A stretch of DNA of 64,000 bases, from positions 675,693-739,692 of the forward strand of contig CAUYUJ010003891.1 of NCBI GenBank assembly GCA_963575745.1. Direction: 5' to 3'. Position 1 is the stretch's first letter. The number at the start of each line of letters is the position of its first letter. Source of the DNA: Prorocentrum cordatum. Its lineage: Eukaryota > Sar > Dinophyceae > Prorocentrales > Prorocentraceae. Below the pieces are notes generated by a model. That model saw only the letters and a list, made by a program, of their open reading frames with translations, was not told the DNA's origin and searched no databases. Made by a program: the position numbers and the translations under genes. Below, one piece after another: positions 16,754 through 64,000 of this stretch.

Positions 16754-16942
16754 CGGCAGGTTCGTGTCGTGCCGACCCCAGCGTTGGTTTCTGACACCGC
16801 GCTGGATCGTTCAACCTTGAACGATCGGCCGTCTCCGCAACGTCCAATCGTTCAACGTCGATCGATTCTGGGTCGCCAGCGGCGTTCAACCTTGAACGCC
16901 CACGCTGGGGTCGCCGCTGGTCGACACGACGCAAACCTACCG
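16754..16942. mobile_element. 189-bp foldback MITE, copy 1 (TA-flanked)
   Basis: Ends are imperfect inverted repeats: CGGCAGGTTCGTGTCGTGCC on the left against the reverse complement of the right end, CGGTAGGTTTGCGTCGTGTC. TA flanks both sides (16752-16753 and 16943-16944). Inside are two smaller palindromes of the type CGTTCAACCTTGAACG. TA duplication and lack of coding capacity suggest a Tc1/mariner-type MITE. A second copy of identical length lies 1.1 kb away. Confidence 0.8.
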
Positions 16943-17860: not shown

Positions 17861-18049
17861 CGGCAGGTTCGCGTCGTGTCGACCCCGGCGTTGGTTTCTG
17901 ACACCGCGCTGGATCGTTCAACCTTGAACGATCGGCCGTTTCCGAAACGTCCGATCGTTCAACATCGACCGATTCTGGGCCGCCGGCGGCGTTCAACCTT
18001 GAACGCCCGCGCTGGGGTCGCCGCTGGTCGACACGACGCAAACCTACCG
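17861..18049. mobile_element. 189-bp foldback MITE, copy 2 (TA-flanked)
   Basis: Same length and orientation as the copy at 16754, about 90% similar by eye, with TA on both sides (17859-17860 and 18050-18051). The inner CGTTCAACCTTGAACG palindromes are kept. It sits just upstream of the LINE, followed by a GGA tract at about 18078-18105. Confidence 0.8.
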
Positions 18050-33431: not shown

Positions 33432-34282
33432 CGCGTCAACGTTGTCAACGTTGTCAACGTTGTCAACGTTGGGCCTCCCTCCTTCCTCTCCCGCTGCCAG
33501 CGGGTTCCCAGGGCTGTAGGGGAAGCGCCCCCCCCCTCCCTCCAAGGCGCCAACGTTGTCGACGTTGTCAAGGTTGCCCGCGCTGCCCCCCGCCCCCCCC
33601 CCCCCTCCCTTCCAGCGAGGGCCCAGGGCTCCAGGTTGGGCGCTCCCCCAAGGCGCCAACGTTGTCAACGTTGGCCCCCCCCCCCCCCCCCTCCTGCCAG
33701 CGAGGAGCTCGGGCTCCAGATTGAGCGCCCCCCCACGTTGTCAACGTTGCCAACGTTGGGCCTCCCCCCTGCCAGCGAGGGCCCAGGGCCCCAGGTTGGG
33801 CGCCCCGCCAGGGCGCCAACGTTGTCAACGTTGTCAACGCTGGGCCCGGATCCAGCCAGCGAGGGCCCAGGGCCCCAGGTTGGGCGCCCCCCCAAGGCGC
33901 CAGCGTTGTCAACGTTGTCAACGTTGAGGCCCCCCAATCCTGCCAGCGAGGAGCGCGGGCCCCAGGTTGGGCGCCCCCCCAAGGCGCCAACGTTGTCAAC
34001 GTTGTCAAGGTTGTCCACGTTGGGCCTCCCCCCTGCCAGCGAGGACCCAGAGCGTCAGGTTGGGCGCCCCCCCCCCCAAGGCGCCAACGTTGTCAACGTC
34101 GTCAACGTTGTCAACGTTGGGCCCTCCCCCCTCCTGCCAGCGGAGGGCCCGGAACTCCCGGGCCGGGAGCTCCGGAAGCTCCGGGAGCTCCCGGAGCTTC
34201 AGATCCGGAGTTCCCGGAGTTCCCTCTCAGGGACTGAGGCTTGCTTGCGTCAGACACTTGGCACCCCAACCCCCAAGGGGCT
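33432..34282. repeat. left arm of a large inverted array of AACGTTGTC units
   Basis: About eight units of 80-100 bp, each with two to four 9-bp AACGTTGTC words followed by a block like CTGCCAGCGAGGGCCCAGGG and CCAGGTTGGGCGCC. Unit word clusters begin near 33437, 33551, 33657, 33733, 33816, 33899, 33987 and 34083. The arm ends at GGGACTGAGGCTTGCTTGCG (34229). Confidence 0.92.
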
Positions 34283-34335
34283 AACGTCGTCAACGTTGAC
34301 AACGTTGACAACGTTAGCCCCTTGGGGGGGGGCGT
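34270..34335. repeat. centre of the inverted array (palindrome)
   Basis: CCCAAGGGGCTAACGTCGTC on the left pairs with GACAACGTTAGCCCCTTGGG on the right, about 27 bp per arm with one mismatch. This is the axis where the array reverses orientation. Confidence 0.88.
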
Positions 34336-35400
34336 CTGTCTGACGCGAGCAAGCCTCAGTCCCTACGCGTGAGGCTGAACGACACACTGACGCAAGCAAG
34401 CCTCAGTCCCTGAAAAGGAATTCCGGGAGCTCCGGACTTGGAGCTCCGGGAGCTCCGGGAGCTCCCGGTCCGGGAATTCCGGGTCCTCCGCAGGGAGGGG
34501 GGGGAGGGCCCAACGTTGACAACGTTGACAACGTTGGCGCCGTGGGGGGGCGCCCAACCTGGAGCCCTGGGCCCTCGCTGGCAAGAGGGGGGGTCCAACG
34601 TTGACAACGTTGACAACGTTGGCCCCTTGGGGAGTCGCCTCACCTGGAGACCTGGGTCCTCGCTGGCAGGAGGGGGGGGCCCAACGTTGTCAACGTTGAC
34701 AACGTTGGCGCATTGGGGAGGTGCCTCACCTGGGGCCCTGGGTCCTCGCTGGCAGAGGGAGGGAGGCCCAACGTTGACAACGTTGACAACGTTGGCGCCT
34801 TCGGGGGTCGTCTCACCTGGAGCCCTGGGTCCTCGCTGGCAGAGGGAGGGCCCAACGTTGACAACGTTGACAACGTTGGCGCCTTGGGGGGCCGTCTCAC
34901 CTGGAGCCCTGGGTCCTTGCTGGCAGGGGAAGCCCAACGTTGACAACGTTGACAACGTTAACAACGTTGGCGCCTTGGGGGGGCGCCTCACCTTCAGCGC
35001 TGGGCCCTCGCTGGCAGGGGGGGAGGAGGGAGGCGGCCCAACGTTGACAACGTTGACAACGTTGACGCCTTGGGGGGGGGCGCCTCACCTGGGCTTTAGG
35101 CACGCGCTGGCAGAGGGAGGGAGACCCAACGTCGACAACATGACAACGTTAGGGGGCCGTCTGTCTGACGCAAGCAAGCCTCAGTCCTTACGCGTGAGGC
35201 TGAACAACACGTTGACACAAGCAAGCCTCAGTCCCTGAATGGGAACTCCGGGAGCTCCGGACCTGGAGCTCGGGGAGCTCCCGGAACTTCCGGAGCTCCC
35301 GGTCCGGGAGCTCCGGGTCCTCCGCTGGCAGGGGGGGAGGGCCCAACGTTGACAACGTTGACAACGTTGGCGCATCAAGAGCCCCGAGTCCTCGCTGGCA
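34336..35400. repeat. right arm of the inverted array, AACGTTGAC units
   Basis: About nine units in reverse orientation to the left arm: AACGTTGAC words, then GCGCCTTGGGG, then CTGGAGCCCTGGG and CCTCGCTGGCAGAGGG. Near each inner and outer edge sits the reverse complement of the GGCTTGCTTGCGTC motif (34331-34366, 34391-34415, 35166-35193 and 35216-35237). GGAGCTCCGG-rich palindromic spacers lie at 34425-34480 and 35245-35330. Confidence 0.9.
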
Positions 35401-36947: not shown

Positions 36948-36978
36948 ATCGCCATCATCATCATCATTATCATCATCG

Positions 36979-37057
<79 letters not shown>

Positions 37058-37076
37058 TATCACCATCATCATCATG
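36948..37076. repeat. (ATC)n microsatellite
   Basis: About 40 near-perfect ATC triplets. Poly-Ile and poly-His frames are artefacts. Confidence 0.97.
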
Positions 37077-37080
37077 GTAA

Positions 37081-37640
37081 TCTCTGTGGTCTCCGGGGCC
37101 CCCGGGGTGCAGTTAGAAGTGGCGCCTGTGGTTTTTTATTGCGATATCTCTATGTCTTCACAAAATGAAAACTCCGGGGATGCCAAGCCAATTTTTTTTC
37201 AGGCCGACGGCTTGTTTTTTTACTTTCGTGATATTCCTTGTGGTCTCCGGGGGCCCCGGGGCGCAGTCAGAAGTGGAGCCTGTGGCTTTCTATTGTGATA
37301 TCATTATGTTTTGACAACATGAAAACTCCGGGGATGCCAATCCAATTTTTTTTTGGCCGACGGTTTGTTTTTTATTTTCGTTGTATTCCCTGTGGTCTCC
37401 GGGTTCCCGGGGTGCAGTCAGGAGTGGGGCCTGTGGCTTGTATTGTGATGTGCTTATGTTTTCACAACATGAAAACTCCAAGAAGCCAAACCAATTTTTT
37501 TCAGGCCGACGGCTTGTTTTTTACTTTTGTGGTGTACGTTGTGGTCTCCGGGACCCCGGGGTGCAGACGCGGAGTGGCGCCTGTGGCTTTTCTTGTAATA
37601 TGTTTATGCTTTGTTTAAGTCGACGGTTTGTTTCTTACTT
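37081..37640. repeat. tandem array, four copies of about 150 bp, upstream of the gene cluster
   Basis: The mark GTGGTCTCCGGG occurs at about 37087, 37240, 37395 and 37540 (spacing 153, 155 and 145). Each unit also has GAAAACTCC, a run of eight or more T and GGCCGACGGCTTGTTTTTTA. The last unit is truncated about 100 bp before the first ATG of the cluster, so it may act as, or surround, its promoter. Confidence 0.9.
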
Positions 37641-46875: not shown

Positions 46876-47452
46876 GCTTTGAGGGACTGAGGCTTGCTTG
46901 CGTCAGACCGCTGGGCATCGCTGGGAGCCCTGGGCCCTCGCTGGCAGAGAGAGGGGGAAGGGGGGAGCTCAACGTTGACAACGTTGACAATGTGGACGCC
47001 TTGGGGGCGCCTCGATTGGGACCTCGGGCCCGCGCGGGTAAATGGGAAGAGCAAGAGGTGCTGCTTTGAGGGACTAAGGCTTGCTTGCGTCAGACCGCTG
47101 GGTCTCGCTGGGAGCCCTGGGCCCTCGCTGGCAGAGGGAGGGGGAGGGGGGGAACCCAACGTTCACAACGTTGACAACGTTGACGCCTTGGGGCCGCCTC
47201 GATTGGGACCTCGGGCCCGCGCGGGTAAAGGGAAGAGCAGGAAGTGCTGCTTTGAGGGACTGAGGCTTGCTTGCGTCAGACCGCCGGGTCTCACTGGGAG
47301 CCCTGGGTCCTCGCTGGCAGAGGGAGGGGGAGGGAAGATACCCAACGTTGACAACGTTGACAACGTCGACGCCTTTTGGCCGCCTCGATTGGGACCTCGG
47401 GCCCGCGCAGGCAAAGGGAAACAGCAACGTTGACAACGTTGACAACGTTGAT
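46876..47452. repeat. tandem array of three 187-bp units with AACGTTGAC words
   Basis: Units start at GAGGGACTRAGGCTTGCTTG at 46881, 47068 and 47254 (spacing 187 and 186). Each contains TCGCTGGGAGCCCTGGG, CCTCGCTGGCAGAG, two or three AACGTTGAC words, GACGCCTT, CGCCTCGATTGGGACCTCGG and GTGCTGCTTT. The words and orientation match the right arm of the 33.4-35.4 kb array and are inverted relative to its left arm. Confidence 0.93.
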
Positions 47453-53640: not shown

Positions 53641-55948
53641 CCCTTTTTTTCTGTCCGGCAGGCGCTGACCGAGCGTCCATAGCGCCGACGCGCCGTGCCC
53701 GGGTCAGGCCACCTGCACCAAATTAGGGGGGGAGGGGAGGGCCCCCACGACCCCGGCCAGCACAGGGGAGTGCGCGGCAGCGGGATGGTGGGGGGGCGTT
53801 GCCTCCGCGAGCGTCACTGGCAACGCTCACCTCAGACCAGGAGGTGCCACTGACCACTCTGTACACCCTAGCGGAGCGGGTGGGCCCAGGCAGCACGGCT
53901 TGCCCACCGTGGCGGGTACTCTGAAAATGGACAGGACCCAGACCCCCTCGCGTCACGAAAGAAACATCACGACTGCAATGTTCGACGTCCAGGGGCCATT
54001 GTTGGGCCTGGGGACCGTCAGCAAACGACGCGTGATGAAGAGCCGGCCCTGGGAGATGGGTCGAGACACCTGCAAGTCACGTCATAAAACAATCACAGCG
54101 TGCGGGAGTCTGGGGACGGGAGGGAAGAAGAGCAGGGGGGTGGGAGTTTCAGGAGGCCGCCAGCATCTCCTGGGGGGTGCAGGAGTCCTTGGGCTCCAGG
54201 AGGCCCACGGATCGGGAGGTGCTAGAGGTGCCCACAGGAGAAGGTACACCCAGGGGCGCCAGGTATGAACCCAGGTCTTCCACCAACCATAACACATCCG
54301 CGGTTGAATTGGTGATCGGGGCGTCACCCCGCAAATACGTAATGCTAGAACGTGTGCGCCAATCGTGTCTCCAGTGCCTGCCCGGGGTGCCTGAAACCGG
54401 GCTCTAGGTGCACTTGCATTGTTGCAAGGACCCCATCTCCCTGTCGGCCACAGTCGTTCCCTGACCGTGACGCATCGAGAGTGGGGGCAGTTAGGCAACG
54501 TCGCAATCGTATAGAGAGACGCGTGAGGATGCTCCGCGGTGCGTCTTCATGCGCGCAGGCCTTGTTCCTGTTTTTAGTCCCAAGAGTGATGCCACATGGT
54601 AAAATCTCGTTTGGCAAACCGTATCGTGTAGATTCGAATTTGGCGGTTCTGACTGTAGCTAGACTGTAGCTGGATTTGAACGCAGACGGGGCACCGCCGA
54701 ATTCGAGAACATCGCATGTGGTGCGGAATCAAAAACCTGCGCTCGACTGTAGGATTCCTTGCGACAGGATGGATGATTAGAGGCGACAGTGCGAAACACT
54801 GCGCGTCGCCATGCTGAGTAAATCGCGCAGTGCGCATTCGCTCGGTTCCCCTTGGCGGTTACGTGGTCTTCCGTTGTCGATACGCTCGGCCTGCGGGGAA
54901 AATCGGTCCTCGAAGCGGTCGTCGCGGGGTGGCGCTCTGGGGCCGAGGGCCGAGCGGACGCGCTAATGCGCCGCAGGAGGCCACTCTGGGGAACACGAGT
55001 TAGGGAGCCCACAAAGGACGTACGCGCCCAGCTATGTACATGAACACGGCCCCTCGATCCGCGAGACTGGCCGCGTGATATGAACAATCGCGCAATGCGC
55101 ACTCTCGAAACCAGCGTGGATTCGTGTACATGTACGTCCTTCTTTCGCTCCTGGACAAGCTGCGACGATCCGCGATCTGCTCGATCGCGTCTCGCGGTTC
55201 GAGCTGCTCGCGGGGAGGCCCAGACCCGGGGGGGCCCTCGGCCCCGGGGGGCACTCCAAGCAGCTCCCGCACGGAGTGGGGAGAGGGGAGCTCGCAGGAG
55301 CTCCCGGCACACCTGGCGCTCCGTGCTGCAGGGAGAGCGGAGTGCAGAGGCATCCGCGCGGTCGCGAGACGCGCCGTGGAGAAAGACCACCCCTGGCCCA
55401 GTCCGCGAGGCGTTTCAGTGTTCTTCCCTGCGGGTGGCTCAGGAAATCGAGACAGGCTCGCGTGGGCTCCTCACTCAGAAACTGCACTGATGAATCGCAT
55501 GACCAACTGGATATATGGCAGCGTCTGGTCGGATCGAGTCGAGTCGGAACGTGCGTCGGAAATGGCCGCATCGGCACCGAGTCAAAATCGAAATGGATCG
55601 GCCGCGCTAAAATGCACAACAACGCCATTCAAGCACCCAACCGCGCCAAATCGCCGGAACGTCGAGATCGAATCGGAACGAGCTGGGCGGAGCCGGCATT
55701 CCACTGGATCGAACGAATCGAAATGGGTCATGCATCTGATGGCTGAGATCCATCTTGCTCGCGCTCCCCCCATCCCCATCGCTTGTCACATCCCTCCTTC
55801 CAGAGCCCTCGCCGTCAATCCAGCCCTCGTAGGGAAAGAGGTTCGCGGCACAGGAGGCGAGCCATATTCCACCTTGCTCGGCAAGATGTTGGTAAATGGT
55901 TTGAGTTGACGGTAGGCGAAGCCTTTTCGGAAATTCTGATATCTGCAC
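53641..55948. other. no recognised gene
   Basis: Unique-looking sequence. A short repeat AATCGCGCARTGCGCAYTC occurs at about 54822 and 55086. GATCGAATCGGAACG-like words recur at 55530-55725. A minus frame 54659-55390 (243 residues) is Arg/Ser-rich with no domain. Nothing here can be called a gene with confidence. Confidence 0.45.
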
Positions 55949-55989
55949 ATGCCCAACGTCAACATGGTCGTAGCACGCGGAGGACTGTT

Positions 55990-56560
55990 AGGCCGCTCAA
56001 TGGTCTCGACAACTTGGGCCACTCGGTGGCCGTGTTTGGTGCAGGCAACCAACAGTCGCAAGTCAGTGCGTCCCGTCGGTCGGGGGGTCACGCCCCATCG
56101 CTGCCAATGGGTCTTCAGGACCCTTGCTGCCACGGTATGGCAGTCTGTGGGCCCGTGTGCCCGCGCAATCAGTGCGCGTGCGTGCCTGCCCGTCTCAGTC
56201 GGGCTGTCTCGGGCGCGAAGGGCAGCGAAATGTGCTTCCCAGCCCATCCGCCCAATGATTTTCAGCTCGATCTTCTGGCATGGGACTCTTGATCTCGGAC
56301 CCGCACTGCCAGGGGCTCATGCCCTGGCGCTGCCATTTTGAGACCGTCTGGCCATTCAGGGGTCATTGCGGCTTGGGCCGCTCAGTGGCCACATCTGGCG
56401 CAGGCAGCCAAGGGCGCGTCCTGAATTAACGTCTCTTCGGTTGGGGAGTCACGCCCCCGCACTAGCATTGGATCTTCAGTACCTGCTGCCGTTCACCGGT
56501 GTTTGGCTTTAGCTGACTCTGCCCGCCTCGGCCTGCCGTCGCGCGTCGGAGCGCCTGCAC
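55990..56560. repeat. diverged direct duplication, offset about 358 bp
   Basis: CTTGGGCCACTCGGTGGCC (56013) matches CTTGGGCCGCTCAGTGGCC (56371). GTGCAGGCAACCA/GCGCAGGCAGCCA, GGGGGTCACGCCC/GGGAGTCACGCCC and GGGTCTTCAGGACCC/GGATCTTCAGTACCT follow in the same order. Confidence 0.75.
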
Positions 56561-56663
56561 GCGCGGTCGTCTTCATCGGGTAGAGACGAGCGCCCTGGAG
56601 AGCGAAATACGTTTCAGCTTGGTAATCCAGAAGCCGCATTAAAGTGATCATTTGTTTTTTGGC

Positions 56664-56745
56664 CCCCCCTCTGTCACAGAGGGGGTCTGAGATGCCCCCC
56701 CTCTGTCACAGAGGGGGTCTGAGATGCCCCCCCCTCTGTCACGGA
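56664..56745. repeat. 39-40-bp tandem repeat with internal palindrome
   Basis: Two and a half copies of a unit containing CCCCCTCTGTCACAGAGGGG, each copy able to form a hairpin, joined by GTCTGAGATG. Confidence 0.9.
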
Positions 56746-57057
56746 GGACCTCGTTCTGGGTGCTCTTCTGCCACGGGAGCTCCCGATACGATTGGAGACG
56801 ATAAAATGTGATAGCGGGATGGGGGATTGGAGGGGGAGGGAGAAGAAAACGATGAAGGAGAGGAGGCAACGACAGCACCGATGAAAGCACCGTTTCTTTT
56901 TCCTTCTCCGCTCGGGCAGCGGTCGCCGAGCACGACGGCGCGCGCGAGTCGCCGCCGCTCACGATGCATTGGCAAGGCCTCCGCTGCTGCGGAGGGTCGA
57001 CGTTCGGCCGATGAGGCCTCCCTCCGCTGCTGCGGAGGGGCGGCTCCTGTGCGATGG

Positions 57058-57530
57058 TTCAACTAAGCTTTTCCCAGGGATTGGTTTCGGGGGGGGGTTC
57101 GACCCACCTCCAAGTCGTGGTCGCGACCTCCCAGTGCCCCTGGCCGCTACTCCACCCACTGTGGCTGCTCCACCAGTCACTGGGGCGTTGGTCGCTGCCG
57201 AATGCAACTTGCATGTCGCGCCAGGCGGAGTCGACCATGCGGTCCTGCAGCGAGGAAGCCTCGCCGCTCGGCTGTTGCCACTCGCGCTCCTCGCCCTCCT
57301 TGGTGCGCCACCGCTCATCCCTGCGCCACTCCTCGTCTGTTGGTTGCTGCCGTGGCGTTTGTGGCCTCCGCTGCTGCGGGGGCTCTGGCGGCTCGTGGCC
57401 GAGGGCAGCGATCGCGTCCGAGATGTAGATGGCGGCGCCGCGCTGCCCTCGCTGCTCCAGCGGCGCAGGCCCTGGAGATGGGCACTGCGGGGTCGGCTGC
57501 CACCATGGGGGGTGATAAATAATTATTTAT
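57058..57530 (-). CDS. Trp-rich coding segment, possibly a 3' exon of the EEP gene
   Basis: A minus-strand frame without a long ATG-started ORF reads AAIYISDAIAALGHEPPEPP, DEEWRRDERWRTKEGEEREW, LQDRMVDSAWRDMQVAFGSD and DWWSSHSGWSSGQGHWEVAT, then TGA near 57058. Low-bias, Trp-containing text like this is a strong sign of real coding. It lacks its own start, the frame opens after a TAA near 57540, and AG acceptor sites lie at its beginning. So it is probably the last exon of the gene at 57603-59705, in a different frame after an intron. One palindrome copy (57364-57383) is read inside it as EPPQQRRP. Confidence 0.5.
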
Positions 57531-57602
57531 ATATCCCCTCCCTGTCAACTCCCGCCCCTTCCCGACACTCATTTCCTTATGTCATCCCTCGTCCTGCTCA
57601 GC

Positions 57603-59705
57603 CTATTCCTCATTCCCTCTCCTCCCTCCTGCCCTCCCCGTGCTCCACCGCCCCTCTCCCCCCCTCCCCCTTTCAACCCCCCGCCGCGACCTTCCATCGC
57701 CAGCCGCGGGCATGTCGCGGCCGTCGTCCGCGCTTTCGTCTGCCCATCTTGGTGGGCGCCACGCCTGTTGGGCGCGCTCGTCTTGCTCGCCCCTCTCGCT
57801 GCGCTGCTCTGGTGCCTGGCGCTCGTGCTGCTCGGGCGGCAGCGGCGCCCTGAGCGCAGCTGCCAGCTGTTTCTGGGCGCGCCTGTCTTTCCTCTCTTTG
57901 GCTCTCTCCTGCTTCCTCCCCGGCGAACGCACGCTGGCCATGCGCATTTGGAACAGGAGAGGGTAGTGGGCGCCGCCGTGCCAGCGCCCCTCCACCTCCA
58001 CGGTCTCTGGCGGGAACGTCTTCTGCAACGCGCGGAAGAGGGTCACCTCGCGATTACTAGAGAAGCGGCGGTCCCCTCTAGCCTCAGCCTCGGCGCGCCT
58101 CAGTTTCTCACTCTCCTTCTCTTGGATCTTGCGTTGGCATTCCTCTGACTGAGTCAGTAAATCCTGGAGGTGCTCGCGGGCGTCTTTTTTCGGGTAGTAG
58201 CAAGAGTAAGGCATCCCAGGGCCTCCGTTCTGGCTGTGGTGCCAGTACGTCGGCTGCGATGATGGGCTGGTGGCGGCCCCCGCTGCTGCGGGGGCCTCTG
58301 CCTTGCTTCTGTTACGGTACCCGATCTCACCGATCACCGACTTGCGTGCGAAGAGCAACCCCGTCTCGTCTCTGTCGTGCACGGCGCTCAGCGGCCAGCA
58401 CAGGGTGTACTCGCCAGGCCTGTTGAGAACGAAGATGCCGCAGCTGTCCAAGCACGGAGTGCCGTCCAATCCGCGCCAGAAGTACGCTGCTGCCGTCTCC
58501 AATCGCATGCCTAGACCCCGAAGACTCGGCAGCGTCTGTGTGAGCGCCATGTTGAAATCCCCACAAAGGATGTCAACGCTGTTGTCCTGCAAGATGGTCG
58601 CCAACCTCGGCCACCACGTCTTGTGAGCCTCGTTGAAGCCTCTGGAATTTTTCGCCGTGTCGCGGTGGAGGTGCACCGCGCACGCCCGCACTTTCGAGCC
58701 GAAGTGGGCGTAGGTTTGATCGAAGTAGAGCTCAACCACCATGATCCTCGAGAACGCTTCCATCTTGCGCCCTCTTGCTGTTCTGTAGTGGCCGTCGACA
58801 CTCCTTTCCCAGTGGAGCAGCCGCATTTCGTAACACAGATTTGCGCGCGCAGCGATGCACAAGGACTTGTCCTCACGCCCGCGCAGGGTCAAGTATTCGT
58901 ACTCTGGTCGATTCTGGAGCTGTTGGCAATCGCCAACACTCGCAGCACGACTTCCTCTTGCTGTCGCCATCGCTGCTGCGGGGGCGACAAAAGGCCCACC
59001 GCTGCTGCTGCTTTGGCCCTCCGCTGCTGACGCCCCCGCTGCTGCGGGGGCGTCCGCCTGCAGCGGCGGTGGTCTCCCTGGCCGCTGTAGGATTGACTCC
59101 ATCTGCTCCTCACATTCCGCAAAGCACGCCACGAGAGCAGGGCAATGCCGCAGCTGCAACTCAAGTCTCCGCCGCTGGTCCGCGTGGTTGGTCTCGCTCG
59201 GCATGGAACCCCAGTTCCCGAACAGGACGGAAAGGTTGCCCACGTTGTCGTTCCGTGGCCTGTTCACGTCAGCCGCTCTTCTTTCGCAGAAGAATTTTGG
59301 CGGGGCGGTGTCGCGAAGAACGCATTCGCGCCGCTCGACGTCGTTGGGCGGCCTGCAGCCCCTAAATTCCTGAGGCTCTTCGTCATCGCTCGGATCCACC
59401 ACGGAGTCGCCTGGGCGGGTGCGTATCGTAGAAACTTCTGATCGCGCCGCCGCTGCTGAGCTTGAGACGCCAGGCGGCGCAGCCCCCGCTGCTGCGGGGG
59501 CGCCCTCTGGCACAAGGGCCCAAGGACCCTTCCAGGGTTCTGCCTGACCACCTGCAGGTCGCCAAACCTTCCCAGATTTCGCTGTGAACACTGCCGTCAG
59601 TCGGCCCCGAGGCCCCGCTGCTGCGGGGCCCAATGGGCTGCTGCTGCTGCTGGTGGCCGCGGCCATCGCTCCCTGCCCCCGCGTTGCAGGGGGGGCGGCC
59701 GTCAC
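57603..59705 (-). CDS. EEP-family (DNase I-like) endonuclease gene carrying palindrome insertions
   Basis: The frame has 700 residues. EEP landmarks: LSVLFGNWGSMP (about residue 155), VACFAECEEQME (catalytic Glu, about 193), KVRACAVHLHRDTA (about 345) and DILCGDFNMALTQT (Asp/Asn, about 385), then WWPRLATIL-like helices and a C-terminal Arg/Lys/Glu-rich coiled region. A typical final SDH motif was not found, so the fold may be incomplete. Five palindrome copies are translated in frame as PAAAG or close variants, between and within domain strands. Such EEP genes are abundant in dinoflagellate genomes, often near retroelements; no RT is present here. The C-terminus after about residue 640 is low in complexity and may be intron. 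Confidence 0.6.
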   Translation of the reverse strand: MTAAPPATRGQGAMAAATSSSSSPLGPAAAGPRGRLTAVFTAKSGKVWRPAGGQAEPWKGPWALVPEGAPAAAGAAPPGVSSSAAAARSEVSTIRTRPGDSVVDPSDDEEPQEFRGCRPPNDVERRECVLRDTAPPKFFCERRAADVNRPRNDNVGNLSVLFGNWGSMPSETNHADQRRRLELQLRHCPALVACFAECEEQMESILQRPGRPPPLQADAPAAAGASAAEGQSSSSGGPFVAPAAAMATARGSRAASVGDCQQLQNRPEYEYLTLRGREDKSLCIAARANLCYEMRLLHWERSVDGHYRTARGRKMEAFSRIMVVELYFDQTYAHFGSKVRACAVHLHRDTAKNSRGFNEAHKTWWPRLATILQDNSVDILCGDFNMALTQTLPSLRGLGMRLETAAAYFWRGLDGTPCLDSCGIFVLNRPGEYTLCWPLSAVHDRDETGLLFARKSVIGEIGYRNRSKAEAPAAAGAATSPSSQPTYWHHSQNGGPGMPYSCYYPKKDAREHLQDLLTQSEECQRKIQEKESEKLRRAEAEARGDRRFSSNREVTLFRALQKTFPPETVEVEGRWHGGAHYPLLFQMRMASVRSPGRKQERAKERKDRRAQKQLAAALRAPLPPEQHERQAPEQRSERGEQDERAQQAWRPPRWADESADDGRDMPAAGDGRSRRGVERGRGGEGRWSTGRAGGRRGNEE

Positions 59706-59789
59706 AGCCGAACTCCCGGGGCCGAAACGGCGGTGGAAGGAGGGGGGCGGGGCGAAGAGGAGGAAGACGGGGCGGATAGGGAAGGAAAG

Positions 59790-59793
59790 GGCG

Positions 59794-59833
<40 letters not shown>

Positions 59834-59852
59834 CAGGGAGATAGTGAGAGAG

Positions 59853-59904
<52 letters not shown>

Positions 59905-59912
59905 GGACGACG

Positions 59913-59944
<32 letters not shown>

Positions 59945-59955
59945 GGATAGAGAGA
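59790..59955. repeat. (AG)n microsatellite
   Basis: Three AG blocks separated by GGATAG or CGGACGACGATAACG. It separates the EEP gene from the OTU-DDE gene. Confidence 0.97.
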
Positions 59956-60232
59956 GGAATGATATAATGACCAGGAGAGATCAGGGAGAAGGAGGGGGGA
60001 GAGCAGGAGGAGGGGCGGAGTGATCGACACCCGCGTGGTTTTCTCCCCCTGCCTGCTCTCCCCCTCCTCTCACCTCCTCCCCCGCCCCCCCTCCTCCCTG
60101 TTTCTTCTGCGCAAGGCCTGCGCTACGTCCGCGCGCGCACGCGGCACCTCAGTCGCAGGCAGGTGGGAGAGCAGTGGCTGCTGCCCGAACTCACACCCCG
60201 CGCCTCGCCGCTGCTGCGGCGGGCCGCGCCTC

Positions 60233-60560
60233 TCAGAGGCCCCCAGCTGCAGGGAGCGCAAGCGCCAGGGAGCCAGACAGACGGCGTCGCGTCTCACTGT
60301 GCACAAACATGCTGAAAGCTCTCGGGTTGCCCCCCAAGTACTCGTCTATGACGTTCTGCAACCATGTGGCAAACGTCTCCGGCCACTTTCCACCGAAGTC
60401 CTCCATGCCAGCGGCGTCCCATTCCCGCCGAAACCAGTCAAAATCTGACCGCTGAGCTGCAGAAAGCCCAGAACCCAAAATCGCAAGGCGATTCAGCGCG
60501 TCGCACCTCGACGTTCGACCCGCCGCGCCTCCGCAGCTGCGAAGGCCCGCGCCCAGCTCG
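60233..60560 (-). CDS. C-terminal segment of the OTU-DDE gene in a shifted frame
   Basis: Reads RDALNRLAILGSGLSAAQ-like text, then DFDWFRREWDAAGMEDFGGK, TFATWLQNVIDEYLGGNPRA and FSMFVHSETRRRLSG. It is low in bias and in a frame one step from the main ORF. The break lies near 60527-60580, where a 20-nt palindrome variant with an AGCT centre (60527-60546) sits. Insertion of 20 nt would change frame, which may explain it. Confidence 0.55.
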
Positions 60561-62465
60561 GATAACCCGACATGCTTCATCCTGTGTTTGATATCTATGG
60601 CTGCCTCTGCGTCTAAGAGTTTGGCTTGCTGTGTCCTCAGCAGCTTGCGCGCTTTCTTTACTTACGTCGTCCCCCAGGCGGGTTAGCTCTTCTCTGCGCC
60701 GCGCCTCGACATCCCGCTGTCGTTTCTCGTTTCTGAGCGTCGCCTCGCGGGCGCCCTCGTATGCTGCGAGGGCTCGCTGAACCCCAGGATCTTCCTTCGA
60801 CACTTCACGCACTCGCCCCCGTTCTTTCCGTAATTGCGTCTCCATGAACGTGGCCCCCGCGATGTCGCCCCAGCTGCGCAACTCCTCAGCGATCGACGAA
60901 TACGTTCTCATCAATTCAGACGTCTGCTCCGCAGTTTCCATACGAGACGTCGACAGGCCAGGCGGTGCCTCCAGCGCGCTCTCCCCCGCCGCTGCTGCGG
61001 TGAGACTTTGATTGGCCCATTCGTAGTCAAACTCGCCAGCGGCGCTCCACCCGTCGTCGTCCTCGCTCCCATCATCTTCATCTCCTTCGAGGGCGTCGAC
61101 GGAATTGCCACCCTCAGTGCCCCCGCTGCTGCGGAGACCCTCGGCTGCGTCTTCCGCCCCCTCCATGCCATGCCAAATCTTGTCGCCCTCGTCCAGAGCC
61201 GTGTCGTCTCCAAGGTTTGCGAACACGTCGTCGCAGTGGCCGCGTCGAGGGCGCGGGAGGACCAATCGCATGATGTCTTTGTAAGTCCATCTCAAGCGCC
61301 CCGCCTGTACCTCTTCTTCGACCTCCGCTACTGCGGCGGCGACCTTCTTACGCATCCCCAACTTTCTCCAGAAATGGCCTGCCTCCTTGCATATGCGCGC
61401 GTCCAAGTCCGCATCCCACAGATTTGCCTTGAAACCAGTTTCCCAGTACCCGTCTGCCGCAGCCAAGTGAAGACTCATTTGGGACATCACTTCCACCATC
61501 AAGTCAATGCATTCTAACTTGTCCAGCTGTGGGACGCACTGGCCCAGCCTCATGGCTCTCAGCAGCGCGGCTCCTTCTCTCTTCATGTACTCGCGCTTGG
61601 CGTGTTGATTCAGATGTGTGTCCACAGTTTGGAGGATTGGGGTTACGCCGCCCCCGTGCGGGATGAACACGTACCCTCGAGACCAACATAGCTTACTCAC
61701 AAGCGGGGACAAGTGAGGGCCATGATCATCCGCCATCATAATTCTCCACTCCCGCTGCTGCGGAGGCTCTGGCAGATGAGGGAGGTGGCGGTCCAGGTAC
61801 GCGAGCACGCACGGTGTCCGGTAAGACCCCTTGGTGCCGGTGCCGAACCCTCGGCGCCGAAGGTGTTCGAGCAGGCGCGGCCTCAACTTCTCTCCTCCCC
61901 CCTCCGCCTTGAACATGCACTCCATCGGTGGGGGGCCTTCTCTCCGCAGTCGATCCTTGTCGCTCATTGTCATGAAATTGGCCGTCCACCGCTCCCGCAC
62001 CGCGCCGTGGCACTCCACCAGTGGCACTTCGACCCCCGCTACTGCGAGGGTCCTCACGCCAGCTGATCCTGTTTCATTGTGGTGGAAAGGCGACTGGTCG
62101 AAGTTCTCCATCTCGGGATCCTGCTCGTTGAGTACCCTAAACACGTTCAGCCAGCCTCGCTCGAGGCGCTCTTCCAAGACGGGCAGCGGGCACTTGTACT
62201 TCCTGTTCGGGTACCGCATGCTGAGGCCGTATTCCTTGCGCCAGGAGGCCCACCAGCGCGACCTCAACTCCACGGCGGCGGGTCGCTGCCCGATCCGCAG
62301 CTGCTGCGTGACGTACTCGCTCATGAGCTCCAACGCTTTGGTCTGGAGCATGCTTTGCGTGAACCTTGCTATCTTCGCTGGCTCTCTTTGGGTACTTCGC
62401 AGTCCACTTTTGATCATCTTCCAATCCACACTGTGCCGAATGGAACTCCACCATTCAAACAGAGC
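60438..62465 (-). CDS. DDE (pogo/Tigger-like) transposase part of the OTU-DDE gene
   Basis: Directly after the TAA at 62466-62468 the frame reads ALFEWWSSIRHSVDWKMIKS, so coding continues. Numbering from the GTG at 62429, the core has NFDQSPFHHNETGS (Asp111), MMADDHGPHLSPL (Asp234 or 235) and PILQTVDTHLNQHAKREY (Asp270), the D-D-D layout of DDE_1 transposases. A conserved helical segment WWASWRKEYGLSMRYPNRKY precedes it. The rest (residues about 400-660) is acidic, then Arg/Glu-rich and carries several palindromes read as SSGG, PPQQR or AAAAG. It would catalyse cut-and-paste transposition if intact. No terminal inverted repeats of the element were found in the window. Confidence 0.65.
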   Translation of the reverse strand, partial: ALFEWWSSIRHSVDWKMIKSGLRSTQREPAKIARFTQSMLQTKALELMSEYVTQQLRIGQRPAAVELRSRWWASWRKEYGLSMRYPNRKYKCPLPVLEERLERGWLNVFRVLNEQDPEMENFDQSPFHHNETGSAGVRTLAVAGVEVPLVECHGAVRERWTANFMTMSDKDRLRREGPPPMECMFKAEGGGEKLRPRLLEHLRRRGFGTGTKGSYRTPCVLAYLDRHLPHLPEPPQQREWRIMMADDHGPHLSPLVSKLCWSRGYVFIPHGGGVTPILQTVDTHLNQHAKREYMKREGAALLRAMRLGQCVPQLDKLECIDLMVEVMSQMSLHLAAADGYWETGFKANLWDADLDARICKEAGHFWRKLGMRKKVAAAVAEVEEEVQAGRLRWTYKDIMRLVLPRPRRGHCDDVFANLGDDTALDEGDKIWHGMEGAEDAAEGLRSSGGTEGGNSVDALEGDEDDGSEDDDGWSAAGEFDYEWANQSLTAAAAGESALEAPPGLSTSRMETAEQTSELMRTYSSIAEELRSWGDIAGATFMETQLRKERGRVREVSKEDPGVQRALAAYEGAREATLRNEKRQRDVEARRREELTRLGDDVSKESAQAAEDTASQTLRRRGSHRYQTQDEACRVIRAGRGPSQLRRRGGSNVEVRRAESPCDFGFWAFCSSAVRF

Positions 62466-63239
62466 TTACCGCAACCAAGGGCATTTTCGAGCTGGGCCCT
62501 GTCCCTGTTGTGGTATCCTTTTCCGCCCTTTCCACTTCAGGAGGCGCCCCTGCCCGTGCTGCTTTTCGTGTCCCCGCGGCTGCCGAACAGCCTCCGCTAC
62601 TGCGGAGGCGTATTTCGACGACAGAAAAGCCTTGTGCCAGCGCCGCACAACGCGCGTGCGCTTCCTGAGAGGGAGACGGGACATGGAACCCCAGTCCCAC
62701 GCATCCATGAATGAACGCGCCCCTCCATACGGAAAGCGGTCTCCAGGCGTCCAGCCTAAAGAGCGCATGTGCTCGTCGAAAGCACCCGCTATCTCCATCC
62801 TCGAGCACAGGAGCGACGGGACCACCACGCGCTTCTTGTTCTGGGCGGGGGCTTTGCGCTCGCAGCCGCGGTTCCTGTACCTCAAGAGCTGCTCCTCCCG
62901 CTCTGCGGGCATCAACTCCCGAGCTACGTCCAGGGCGCACGCAGCGTCTGTCAGTCCTGTCCACCATTGGATGGCTTGCACGAGCTCCTGACAGACAGCC
63001 TCGGCGTCGACTTCCACCACGGCCAAGTCCTCAGGTGGCGCCGCCGCTGCTGCGGCGGCAACGCCCTGTGCTCTCGGAGGGGCGGCGTGGCCAGGCTGCG
63101 GGACAAGTTCTTCGTCGTCTAAGGCGCTCTGCAGGCGACGAAGCTCCTGGACGTCATCCTGCGTGACTTCTTGTGTCAGGACCATCGCGTCGAGGAACCA
63201 CGCCAGCCGCACCCTTTGCACGATGTAGTCCGCGATGTC
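62466..63239 (-). CDS. central exon of the OTU-DDE gene
   Basis: It begins after the intron with DIADYIVQRVRLAWFLDAMV, continues through DDVQELRRLQSALDDEEL and SFMDAWDWGSMSRLPLRKRT, and ends ARKCPWLR at an in-frame TAA (62466-62468). The frame is the same before and after the TAA, with no splice boundary that preserves the Trp-rich text on both sides. I therefore read it as a single nonsense change, not an intron. Two palindromes lie in it (63040-63059 read AAAAAA, 62590-62609 read AEAVRQP). Confidence 0.65.
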   Translation of the reverse strand, partial: DIADYIVQRVRLAWFLDAMVLTQEVTQDDVQELRRLQSALDDEELVPQPGHAAPPRAQGVAAAAAAAPPEDLAVVEVDAEAVCQELVQAIQWWTGLTDAACALDVARELMPAEREEQLLRYRNRGCERKAPAQNKKRVVVPSLLCSRMEIAGAFDEHMRSLGWTPGDRFPYGGARSFMDAWDWGSMSRLPLRKRTRVVRRWHKAFLSSKYASAVAEAVRQPRGHEKQHGQGRLLKWKGRKRIPQQGQGPARKCPWLR

Positions 63240-63413
63240 CTGGCGGGCGGGCATGGAGGAGGGGCAAGGAGACTCGGTGGGGAGGGCACGAGGGGAGAGA
63301 AGGGCGGGATGGGAGAGGCATGAAGGCAGAATGGGGAGACAAGGAGGGGAAGAGCATGTGGGGGCAGCAGAGATGGAAGCGAAGGATCAGGGTGGTCGGA
63401 GAGAGCAACTGTC
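63240..63413 (-). other. 174-nt GA-AG intron between 11-bp direct repeats
   Basis: On the minus strand the exon ends RELRQ and the intron starts GACAGTTGC, is strongly pyrimidine-rich, and ends CCCGCCAG before GACATC. The 11-bp word CCGCCAGGACA occurs at both junctions (63410-63420 and 63236-63246). GA donors and a G after the AG are known dinoflagellate features. Flanking direct repeats are the hallmark of introner-type (transposon-like) intron gain. Confidence 0.8.
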
Positions 63414-64000
63414 CTGGCGGAGCTCCCTGCGAGACTCTCGCGTGGAAACCTCCTGGGTCATCTGCAACATGCAATCCAAACCGCAGTCCCCGTCTGCGAC
63501 TGTGGACACGACGAACACACCGAGAGCCGAATAGAAACCGTCCACCGTCGAAGCATCTCCCGTGAAATCCACAAAGTCGGTGGAGACGCCTGCGATAAAA
63601 TGATTGCATCGAAACAAAGGATACTCCTCCGACACGGGGGCCCAGTCCGGTGGCCCCGAGTCTCGGGGGACGGCGCAACACGCGATCGCGTCCACCGCAG
63701 GCTCGCGGGTTAACTCCTCTAGTTTCCACGGCGGCAAGACAGCTTTGCAAAGGTCGACTCTGTTGCGTCCTTCCCACACGTAGACGCGCACCTTCCGCAA
63801 CAGCGCAAAGATTACGAAAACAGAATATCCTATCCACTCTCGGCCTCCCCCCGGCCTTCCGCGAATACTGCGCGACAGCTTCATCAATTTCTCGAAGCAC
63901 CTCTGGCCTTGTTCTGAAAGTGCCCCTGCAGGCGCCCCCGCTGCTGCGGGGGCGCCTGCAGGGGCAACCGCAGCGCCTGCTGTCGCGGCTGTCTGTTCAC
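63414..64000 (-). CDS. 5' part of the OTU-DDE gene: OTU-like cysteine protease (partial at window end)
   Basis: The frame is open from the window edge. A 21-bp-arm palindrome is read as APAGAPAAAGAPAGA, then ALSEQGQRCFEKLMKLSRSI, WIGYSVFVIFALLRKVRVYV, FRCNHFIAGVSTDFVDF, and VADGDCGLDCMLQMT, a good match to the OTU catalytic loop (Asp-Gly-x-Cys), followed by RESRRELRQ. OTU proteases remove ubiquitin-like tags; in mobile elements they are found fused to or beside transposases. The catalytic His should lie in the next exon, but I cannot place it. The start codon is outside the window. Confidence 0.6.

Follow-up and report, generated by a model that had tools for sequence, protein, structure and literature searches.

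Dispersed, covarying stem-loops in the genes of a 24-kb transposon family of Prorocentrum cordatum as candidate signals for transcript recognition

The window analysed here is the whole 64,000-nucleotide stretch of the dinoflagellate Prorocentrum cordatum held in assembly GCA_963575745.1 (contig CAUYUJ010003891.1, hereafter C3891, positions 675,693 to 739,692 of the forward strand). Its last 7 kb raise the question of why a short palindrome with a constant centre and changing arms should recur within protein-coding frames. An original prediction, made from the letters alone, had counted about 17 copies, a fair estimate: we found 15 exact CCGC-TRCT-GCGG cores (13 with TGCT and 2 with TACT), all at 56981-63949 and on one strand, to which near copies such as those at 58970 and 62036 are added. 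The first 56.6 kb contained no exact core and a single one-mismatch copy, on the opposite strand; the cores are confined to the last 7 kb because a transposon begins at position 56623. In our judgement there is slightly less than an even chance that these hairpins form a dispersed, lineage-specific set through which a protein recognises the transcript of the element itself.

Comparison of fetched stretches by blastn delimited the element as a 24-kb repeat that starts at window position 56623 and runs past the end of the window to approximately C3891:756.29 kb. The window holds the left part of this copy (copy A, 56623-64000, long open reading frames (ORFs) on the minus strand), recognised by the presence of the same unit between different flanks on two further contigs, C146 and C114. 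The three copies, A (C3891), B (C146) and C (C114), measured 23979, 24191 and 24095 bp and were identical at 98.2–99.1% of aligned bases; their flanks were unrelated, and all three had a terminal inverted repeat (TIR) of 30–31 bp at both ends. The repeat in the window (TAATCCAGAAGCCGCATTAAAGTGATCATTT, 31 bp, 56623-56653) was found inverted at the opposite end of each copy, copy B departing from it by a single base on the left and by the final base on the right. All three copies have the termini TA...TA, so that TA, judged from occupied sites only, is perhaps the target of the transposon. A second palindrome, CCCCCTCTGTCACAGAGGGGG, is repeated in subterminal position beside both TIRs (56665-56717 in the window, and at the far end), and its repeats are possible sites for the transposase. 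Within the three copies, segments 244 to 1051 bp long recur internally at about 85–90% identity. The spacing of hairpins with arms suggested an internally duplicated copy on contig C225 (approximately 440-462 kb) and two copies side by side on C436 (approximately 174-216 kb). The most likely identity of the 24-kb repeat is that of a giant DNA transposon whose DDE transposase is Tc1/mariner-like. With the Tc1/mariner-pogo-Tc5 transposons it shares TIRs, a possible TA target and a probable DDE fold; typical members are far smaller, and this element differs from them in its 24 kb, its many ORFs and its hairpins.

Copy A as a whole contained 47 exact cores in the sense orientation and none in antisense (63 versus 0 with one mismatch allowed), an average of some two exact cores per kb along nearly its full length. 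Sixty dinucleotide shuffles of the element gave a mean of 0.03 exact cores and a maximum of 1, and 300 synonymous-codon shuffles of nine ORFs a mean of 0.33 and a maximum of 4, against 28 observed. Read in the sense direction, the unit is CCGC-AGYA-GCGG, a fixed 4-bp stem closed by the loop AGYA, with about four outer pairs. In the window the arms are real but uneven: beyond the core stem, at least 4 contiguous Watson-Crick pairs were present in 8 of the 15 cores and no contiguous pair in 5. The longest hairpin, at 63921-63966, has a 21-bp stem, followed by those at 59029-59054 (11 bp, loop AGCA) and 58275-58296 (9 bp, loop AGCA), the latter with a predicted RNA fold of -23 kcal/mol that none of 200 shuffles equalled. 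Stems of 8 bp were found at 59482-59501, 59611-59630, 62590-62609 (loop AGTA) and 63040-63059, and at 60527-60546 in a related hairpin with loop AGCT, the stem of which includes one G:U. Cores were also located at 56981-56992 (sense CCGC-AGCA-GCGG), 57024-57035, 57368-57379, where C and A face each other as a mismatched first outer pair on the sense strand, and 60208-60219, which no long ORF covers (open frames there reach at most 91 amino acids), with a one-mismatch near-core at 58970-58981. These, like the remaining sites described below, lie on the minus strand. The RNA folds of four window hairpins ranged from -17.6 to -26.7 kcal/mol (z -2.7 to -7.7), and no Rfam family reached its gathering score in window positions 55000-64000.

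Pairing in the arms was above chance. Over the four outer pairs of copy A, Watson-Crick pairs occupied 136 of 188 cells, compared with 100.6 ± 4.8 when arms were randomly re-paired, and in 31 non-redundant sites 83 of 124 cells, compared with 62.0 ± 4.1. A pair counter applied to 12 pairs in 46 distinct rows recorded both-side changes at all 8 variable pairs. None of 500 shuffles matched the observed values for paired cells, cells with both sides changed, pair types or covariation score; the fifth measure, a count of doubly changed pairs, was reached by 76 of the 500, and slid controls scored lower than the real arms. The fixed core with covarying arms put forward in the original prediction was in this way confirmed, as was the excess in number and pairing over shuffled sequence. 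Beyond Watson-Crick pairs, the four outer positions held 29 G:U and 10 A:C pairs as read on the sense strand, the G:U count exceeding the arm-shuffle expectation of 22.5 ± 2.6 (p 0.008; four inner outer-arm pairs). Hairpins of at least 7 bp with loop AGYA numbered 20 when only Watson-Crick pairs were counted, 38 when G:U was also admitted on the sense strand and 27 when it was admitted on the antisense strand instead. Because the arms covary and sense G:U is in excess, the unit looks like a single-stranded stem-loop, most simply RNA, with the loop AGYA; a single-stranded sense form is favoured over a double-strand binding site, a result that fits RNA and single-stranded DNA alike. We regard as unlikely the DNA version, in which the hairpins would fold on a sense strand displaced or excised during replication or transposition and be bound there by an element protein, for example the transposase. 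The TIRs and the probable DDE transposase suit it, as do the tolerance of G:T in DNA and the single orientation expected of a strand-specific DNA form; but the sites are sense to long ORFs in two lineages, which recognition of the transcript explains directly, and no single-stranded intermediate is known for Tc1/mariner-type transposition.

The genome-wide motif search proposed in the original prediction, carried out in the 4.13-Gb assembly, gave a split answer: the bare 12-mer is only mildly common (17467 places versus 13750 for the reversed pattern), and the armed form GCCYCCGCAGYAGCGGRGGC has 2575 places versus 4 for the reversed control. Among the first 100 armed places listed, 97 belonged to groups, each of 7 or more on a single strand, that lay on 8 contigs, and the ungrouped ones were on C448 (one) and C536 (two). 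A transposase match was found on C114, C146, C217 and C641, the four of these 8 contigs that were checked. A full copy has 10–12 armed hairpins, and 2575 therefore corresponds to roughly 215–258 copy equivalents. Of 12 cores sampled outside element clusters (L001-L008, L015, L016), 11 had 0 or 1 of the four outer pairs and one had 3. With the sampled outside cores mostly unpaired and the armed form clustered, a whole-genome feature, or a general one of the nucleus, is not supported. On contig C15, at 271-286 kb (L015, L016), four TACT cores lie on one strand within 15 kb without pairing arms, either a chance group or a decayed relative. The scarcity of arms outside the clusters also speaks against a signal directed at the host, a reading to which we assign a low probability, in which a host factor of RNA surveillance, processing or modification would recognise the stem-loops and the element would keep them, whether helpful to its RNA or otherwise. 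Dispersed sense stem-loops are in keeping with such a signal, as is the finding that no binder was recognised among the element ORFs scanned; the different loop of a relative (below) is hard to explain by it unless the hosts differ.

The location of the hairpins inside coding frames, also part of the original prediction, was confirmed for all three phases. By the longest sense frame, 26 of the 47 cores of copy A read AAA, 12 RSSG and 9 PQQR, the phase being uncertain for a minority where sense frames are short. All three TACT loops in the window encode A-V-A, whereas TGCT would encode A-A-A. Alanine-rich linkers or CAG-type codon repeats that are palindromic by coincidence could be suspected from the 26 AAA sites and from the use of GCAGCAGCG in 28 of 69 A-[AV]-A triplets. 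We consider this explanation exceedingly improbable and reject it on phase, arms and codon use: 21 of the 47 sites are in other phases, the outer arms covary, and the synonymous shuffles yielded 0.33 where 28 were observed.

Insertion of a hairpin element into these frames, as originally proposed, was contradicted at conserved sites by both the protein alignments and the copies. In the probable transposase, the core at 61325-61336 (loop AGTA) lies on AVAEV and the near-core at 62036-62047 (loop AGTA) on TLAVAG, peptides that are conserved in most transposase rows without a gap. The hairpin at 62590-62609 lies on ASAVAEA; besides the homolog P0001, the peptide at its core (62594, ASAVAEAV) is close only in P0002 (ASAIAEAV), and P0003 and P0005 are gap-free there. 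The core at 61752-61763 lies on P-Q-Q-R before W-R-I, where the neighbouring length varies among relatives. In the EEP-like protein of the element, all 5 rows aligned had a version of an APAAAGASA-like peptide at 59036. Since relatives align without a hairpin-sized gap at the conserved sites, the sequences suggest that codon change in place made the hairpins at 61325 and 62036, where the transposase is strongly conserved, and, with less clarity, those at 62594 and 61752. The sites at 60989-61000 (AAA phase) and 61123-61134 (RSSG phase) are in linkers of variable length. Copies A, B and C showed no insertion differences at hairpin sites; at core sites they differ by point changes and one 15-bp deletion. 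That mobile hairpin micro-elements insert into the reading frames is therefore very improbable, and at conserved sites the gap-free relatives and the three-copy comparison lead us to reject it. Some sites do lie in variable-length linkers, KAEAPAAAG for instance being absent within a longer gap in P0068, but the hairpins occur in one orientation only and their conserved part is just 12 nucleotides plus pairing arms. Rickettsia palindromic elements are likewise palindromic DNA within reading frames; the present hairpins are not insertions where this is testable, and no extra in-frame sequence relative to homologs was found at conserved transposase sites, most clearly at 61325 and 62036. Dinoflagellate introner elements also combine inverted repeats with mobile DNA in genes and, in the available text of PMC10666404, are introns with terminal repeats; the hairpins studied here are read as protein, those at 61325 and 62036 encoding conserved transposase residues instead of lying in an intron that is spliced out.

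Clean presence or absence between loci, which the original prediction would have counted as support, was not observed either. The clearest difference was in L092 (92% protein identity), where the 15-nucleotide centre of the hairpin at 63921-63966 is replaced at equal length and the outer arm bases are kept; the other three core losses in L092 are by single changes. Hairpins can be created and maintained by template switching, according to the available text of PMC8794818, and this mechanism, acting at quasi-palindromes, could keep making arms complementary without any function. The long arms at 63921-63966, the equal-length replacement in L092 and the lack of clear constraint among recent copies agree with such mutational upkeep. 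It leaves unexplained the same 12-nucleotide core at 47 places in one orientation and the different core of the relative, and pairing arms were missing from 11 of the 12 cores sampled outside the clusters; as a full account we think it improbable. Template switching may help to keep arms paired but chooses neither core nor strand. A core that nucleates inverted duplication, the other origin offered in the original prediction, by itself explains neither the single orientation nor the relative's different core.

The relative in question, L022 (NHDG01000044.1), is a 7.7-kb contig filed under a Planctomycetia metagenome-assembled genome, with a transposase 37% identical to that of the window. It is probably misbinned eukaryotic DNA, as the gene family is otherwise this transposon's; further along, a frame resembles the EEP-like protein, as judged by eye only. 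L022 carries a different motif, CCGC-AATNA-CGG, 21 times in sense and never in antisense (shuffle mean 0.02), in the phases AIT, RN[x]G and PQSR. Of its 21 rows, 18 have a standard pair at outer pair 1 and 20 at outer pair 2. Regular spacing was found in neither motif, the coefficient of variation being 0.73 in the element and 0.72 in L022. The window-type core, with one mismatch allowed, occurs once and twice on the strands of L022; the L022 type occurs once and not at all on those of copy A. The armed L022 type is at background in the genome of the window (18 versus 13 in the control). In an equal-length 10-residue segment between HLP and WRI, the window has CCGCAGCAGCGG (PQQR, 61752) and L022 has CCGCAATCACGG (PQSR), two codons off, and the RNNG of L022 aligns with the RSSG/RSGG of P0012 and P0020. 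Neither TLAVAG nor AVAEV carries an L022-type hairpin in L022.

Peptide counts in the 66 transposase homologs, which are partly inherited at conserved positions and so not independent events, pointed to a further type. RS[CGR]G was found 114 times in 55 proteins (3.1 in shuffled sequence), PQ[SLW]R 29 times in 22 proteins (1.1) and [PSLTA]AVA[GEA] 150 times in 57 proteins (4.1). These are three frames of CCGC-AGTN-GCGG, which suggests, from peptides, a third hairpin type in most relatives. L022-type peptides were not in excess in these homologs (RN[HYDN]G once, the AIT context never). Genome queries with P0012 and P0008 did not find other lineages among the 47 of 24857 and 42 of 4125 candidates scored, which is not proof of absence; the long matches were to the window's own family (43–46% identity).

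A multi-site recognition signal on the strand of the element would account for the iteration of the unit, its single orientation, its folding and covariation, its insertion-free origin where testable and the different loop in the relative. Under the transcript recognition that we favour, the hairpins would be stem-loops of the sense strand, that is of the mRNA, of one 24-kb TIR transposon family, written into its genes through codon choice and low-cost amino-acid changes. The approximately four outer pairs of each hairpin would be free to vary while tending to remain paired. The many similar dispersed sites would be bound by a protein, either the element's own product or one borrowed from the host, and binding would tell the transcript of the family from other RNA. 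Different lineages would have different loops, which is what a code for specificity predicts. We infer folding of RNA and not of single-stranded DNA, binding of the folded RNA by a protein, and an effect of that binding, which would be packaging, export, protection or cis preference. More tentatively, and as a possibility that we hold with some doubt, the transposon superfamily may tag its own long transcript with dozens of stem-loops set in codons, the loop changing wholesale between lineages and being specific to the binder of each, a co-evolving code of self and non-self.

Two known systems are close in form. The dispersed packaging signals of RNA viruses (MS2 and others), as outlined in the available text of PMC4751978, are likewise many degenerate stem-loops along one long coding RNA. 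The element shares with them many sense-strand stem-loops with a common loop, presumably on one spanning transcript; it differs in being a DNA transposon with no known coat or binding protein and a far more uniform motif. Cyanobacterial HIP1 and alternate HIPs are also short GC-rich palindromes that are highly iterated and in some lineages swapped for another; in the portion of PMC4390886 that was available they are tied to DNA methyltransferases and genome-wide, whereas here the loop is stranded, the arms covary and the motif is concentrated in one element family. HIPs are perfect double-strand palindromes without orientation; the loop TRCT gives the present motif an orientation, 63 to 0.

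Several observations weigh against recognition of the transcript. The G:U excess is moderate and is lost when seven pairs are counted (45 versus 40.8, p 0.18), A:C at four pairs is not below expectation (10 versus 9.8), and single-stranded DNA also tolerates G:T. In L022 the arm shuffle was not significant (42 versus 40.4) and the covariation score was reached by 42 of 500 shuffles; three L022 examples folded weakly (-11.9 to -18 kcal/mol, z -1.5 to -2.6), and as DNA the second motif is known from this one relative. No binder was recognised among the element ORFs scanned (Pfam, E 0.1). The evidence for recent constraint on the hairpins is weak and inconsistent. Core polymorphism in 28 near-identical copies was 0.0033, compared with 0.0048 elsewhere, and copies A, B and C differed less in hairpins than in the rest (0.0084 versus 0.0143), but the share of variable sites in the 28 copies was higher in cores (9 of 120 versus 265 of 4508). 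Hairpins differed more than the rest in L092 (0.075 versus 0.056) and L093 (0.069 versus 0.051), figures that include the replaced block, and L092, which can be aligned to 10 exact cores of L090, keeps 6 of them.

Four ORFs described here lie on the minus strand of the window. A 675-amino-acid ORF (60441-62465) encodes the probable DDE transposase, the N-terminal part of which is split off in the window copy as a 306-amino-acid ORF (62469-63386) that matches the front of P0001. The 66 homologs of the 675-amino-acid ORF range in identity from 96% to 29%. In the genome, 39 of 66 scored matches lay in a 1061-amino-acid open frame, and with a longer query the long genome matches were in open frames of 1264 to 2051 amino acids. 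Invariant D residues were seen in the transposase alignment, and 3 of the 24 homologs scanned matched HTH_Tnp_Tc5, with an E of 2.8e-4 at best. The predicted structure of P0001, the 96% homolog, from 31 sequences had a mean predicted local distance difference test score (pLDDT) of 73.7 and a predicted template modelling score of 0.50. Its ten best Protein Data Bank (PDB) matches were structures of Mos1, SETMAR/Metnase and Sleeping Beauty (probability 0.51–0.99), with a best E of 0.005 (none below 0.001), template modelling scores by target of at most 0.51 and root-mean-square deviations of 8.5–25.8. On this modelling, the product may have the RNase H fold of a DDE transposase. A 687-amino-acid ORF (57606-59666), EEP-like by its GDFN motif only, contains exact cores at 58280, 59036, 59486 and 59615 and has 4 homologs at 47–61% identity. 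The ORF at 63390-63998 has an OTU-like DGDCGLDCM motif, a label again given by motif only. Pfam returned no family at E 0.1 for six window ORFs and seven further element ORFs, so that the EEP and OTU labels rest on motifs. Sequence searches of the PDB gave no match for the EEP-like protein and, for the transposase profile, only six matches, all weak and to unrelated proteins; the structure model of the EEP-like protein was too poor (mean pLDDT 41.6) and was not used. A protein search of viral contigs found no relatives, and pattern matches there (one armed pattern, L021, and 67 single L022-type) were provisionally taken as chance.

Elsewhere in the window, 30 places with CAACGTTG-N-CAACGTTG were located at 33437-35369 and 46970-47451, many in tandem units of about 84–87 and 186 bp, with the linking base mostly T before approximately 34.2 kb and mostly A after; they look like repeats of other mobile elements. 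The palindromes GATCGTTCAA-cc-TTGAACGATC and GGCGTTCAA-cc-TTGAACGCC form a pair that is repeated 1107 bp apart (16805-16900 and 17912-18007). At 36953-37612, some 41 CAT units form a microsatellite, after which comes a 154-bp tandem repeat.

No description of such a system was found in the open-access literature searched, a scope outside which lie most subscription papers and all bioRxiv preprints. If the proposed reading is true, the element would have an RNA-level cis-recognition system for a DNA transposon, written under protein-coding constraint, and would be a rare case of covarying hairpins that can be traced through codons. The lineage-specific loops would then be natural replicates, making co-evolution of motif and binder directly testable. 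It would also bear on how autonomous elements in the giant genomes of dinoflagellates avoid helping dead or foreign relatives.

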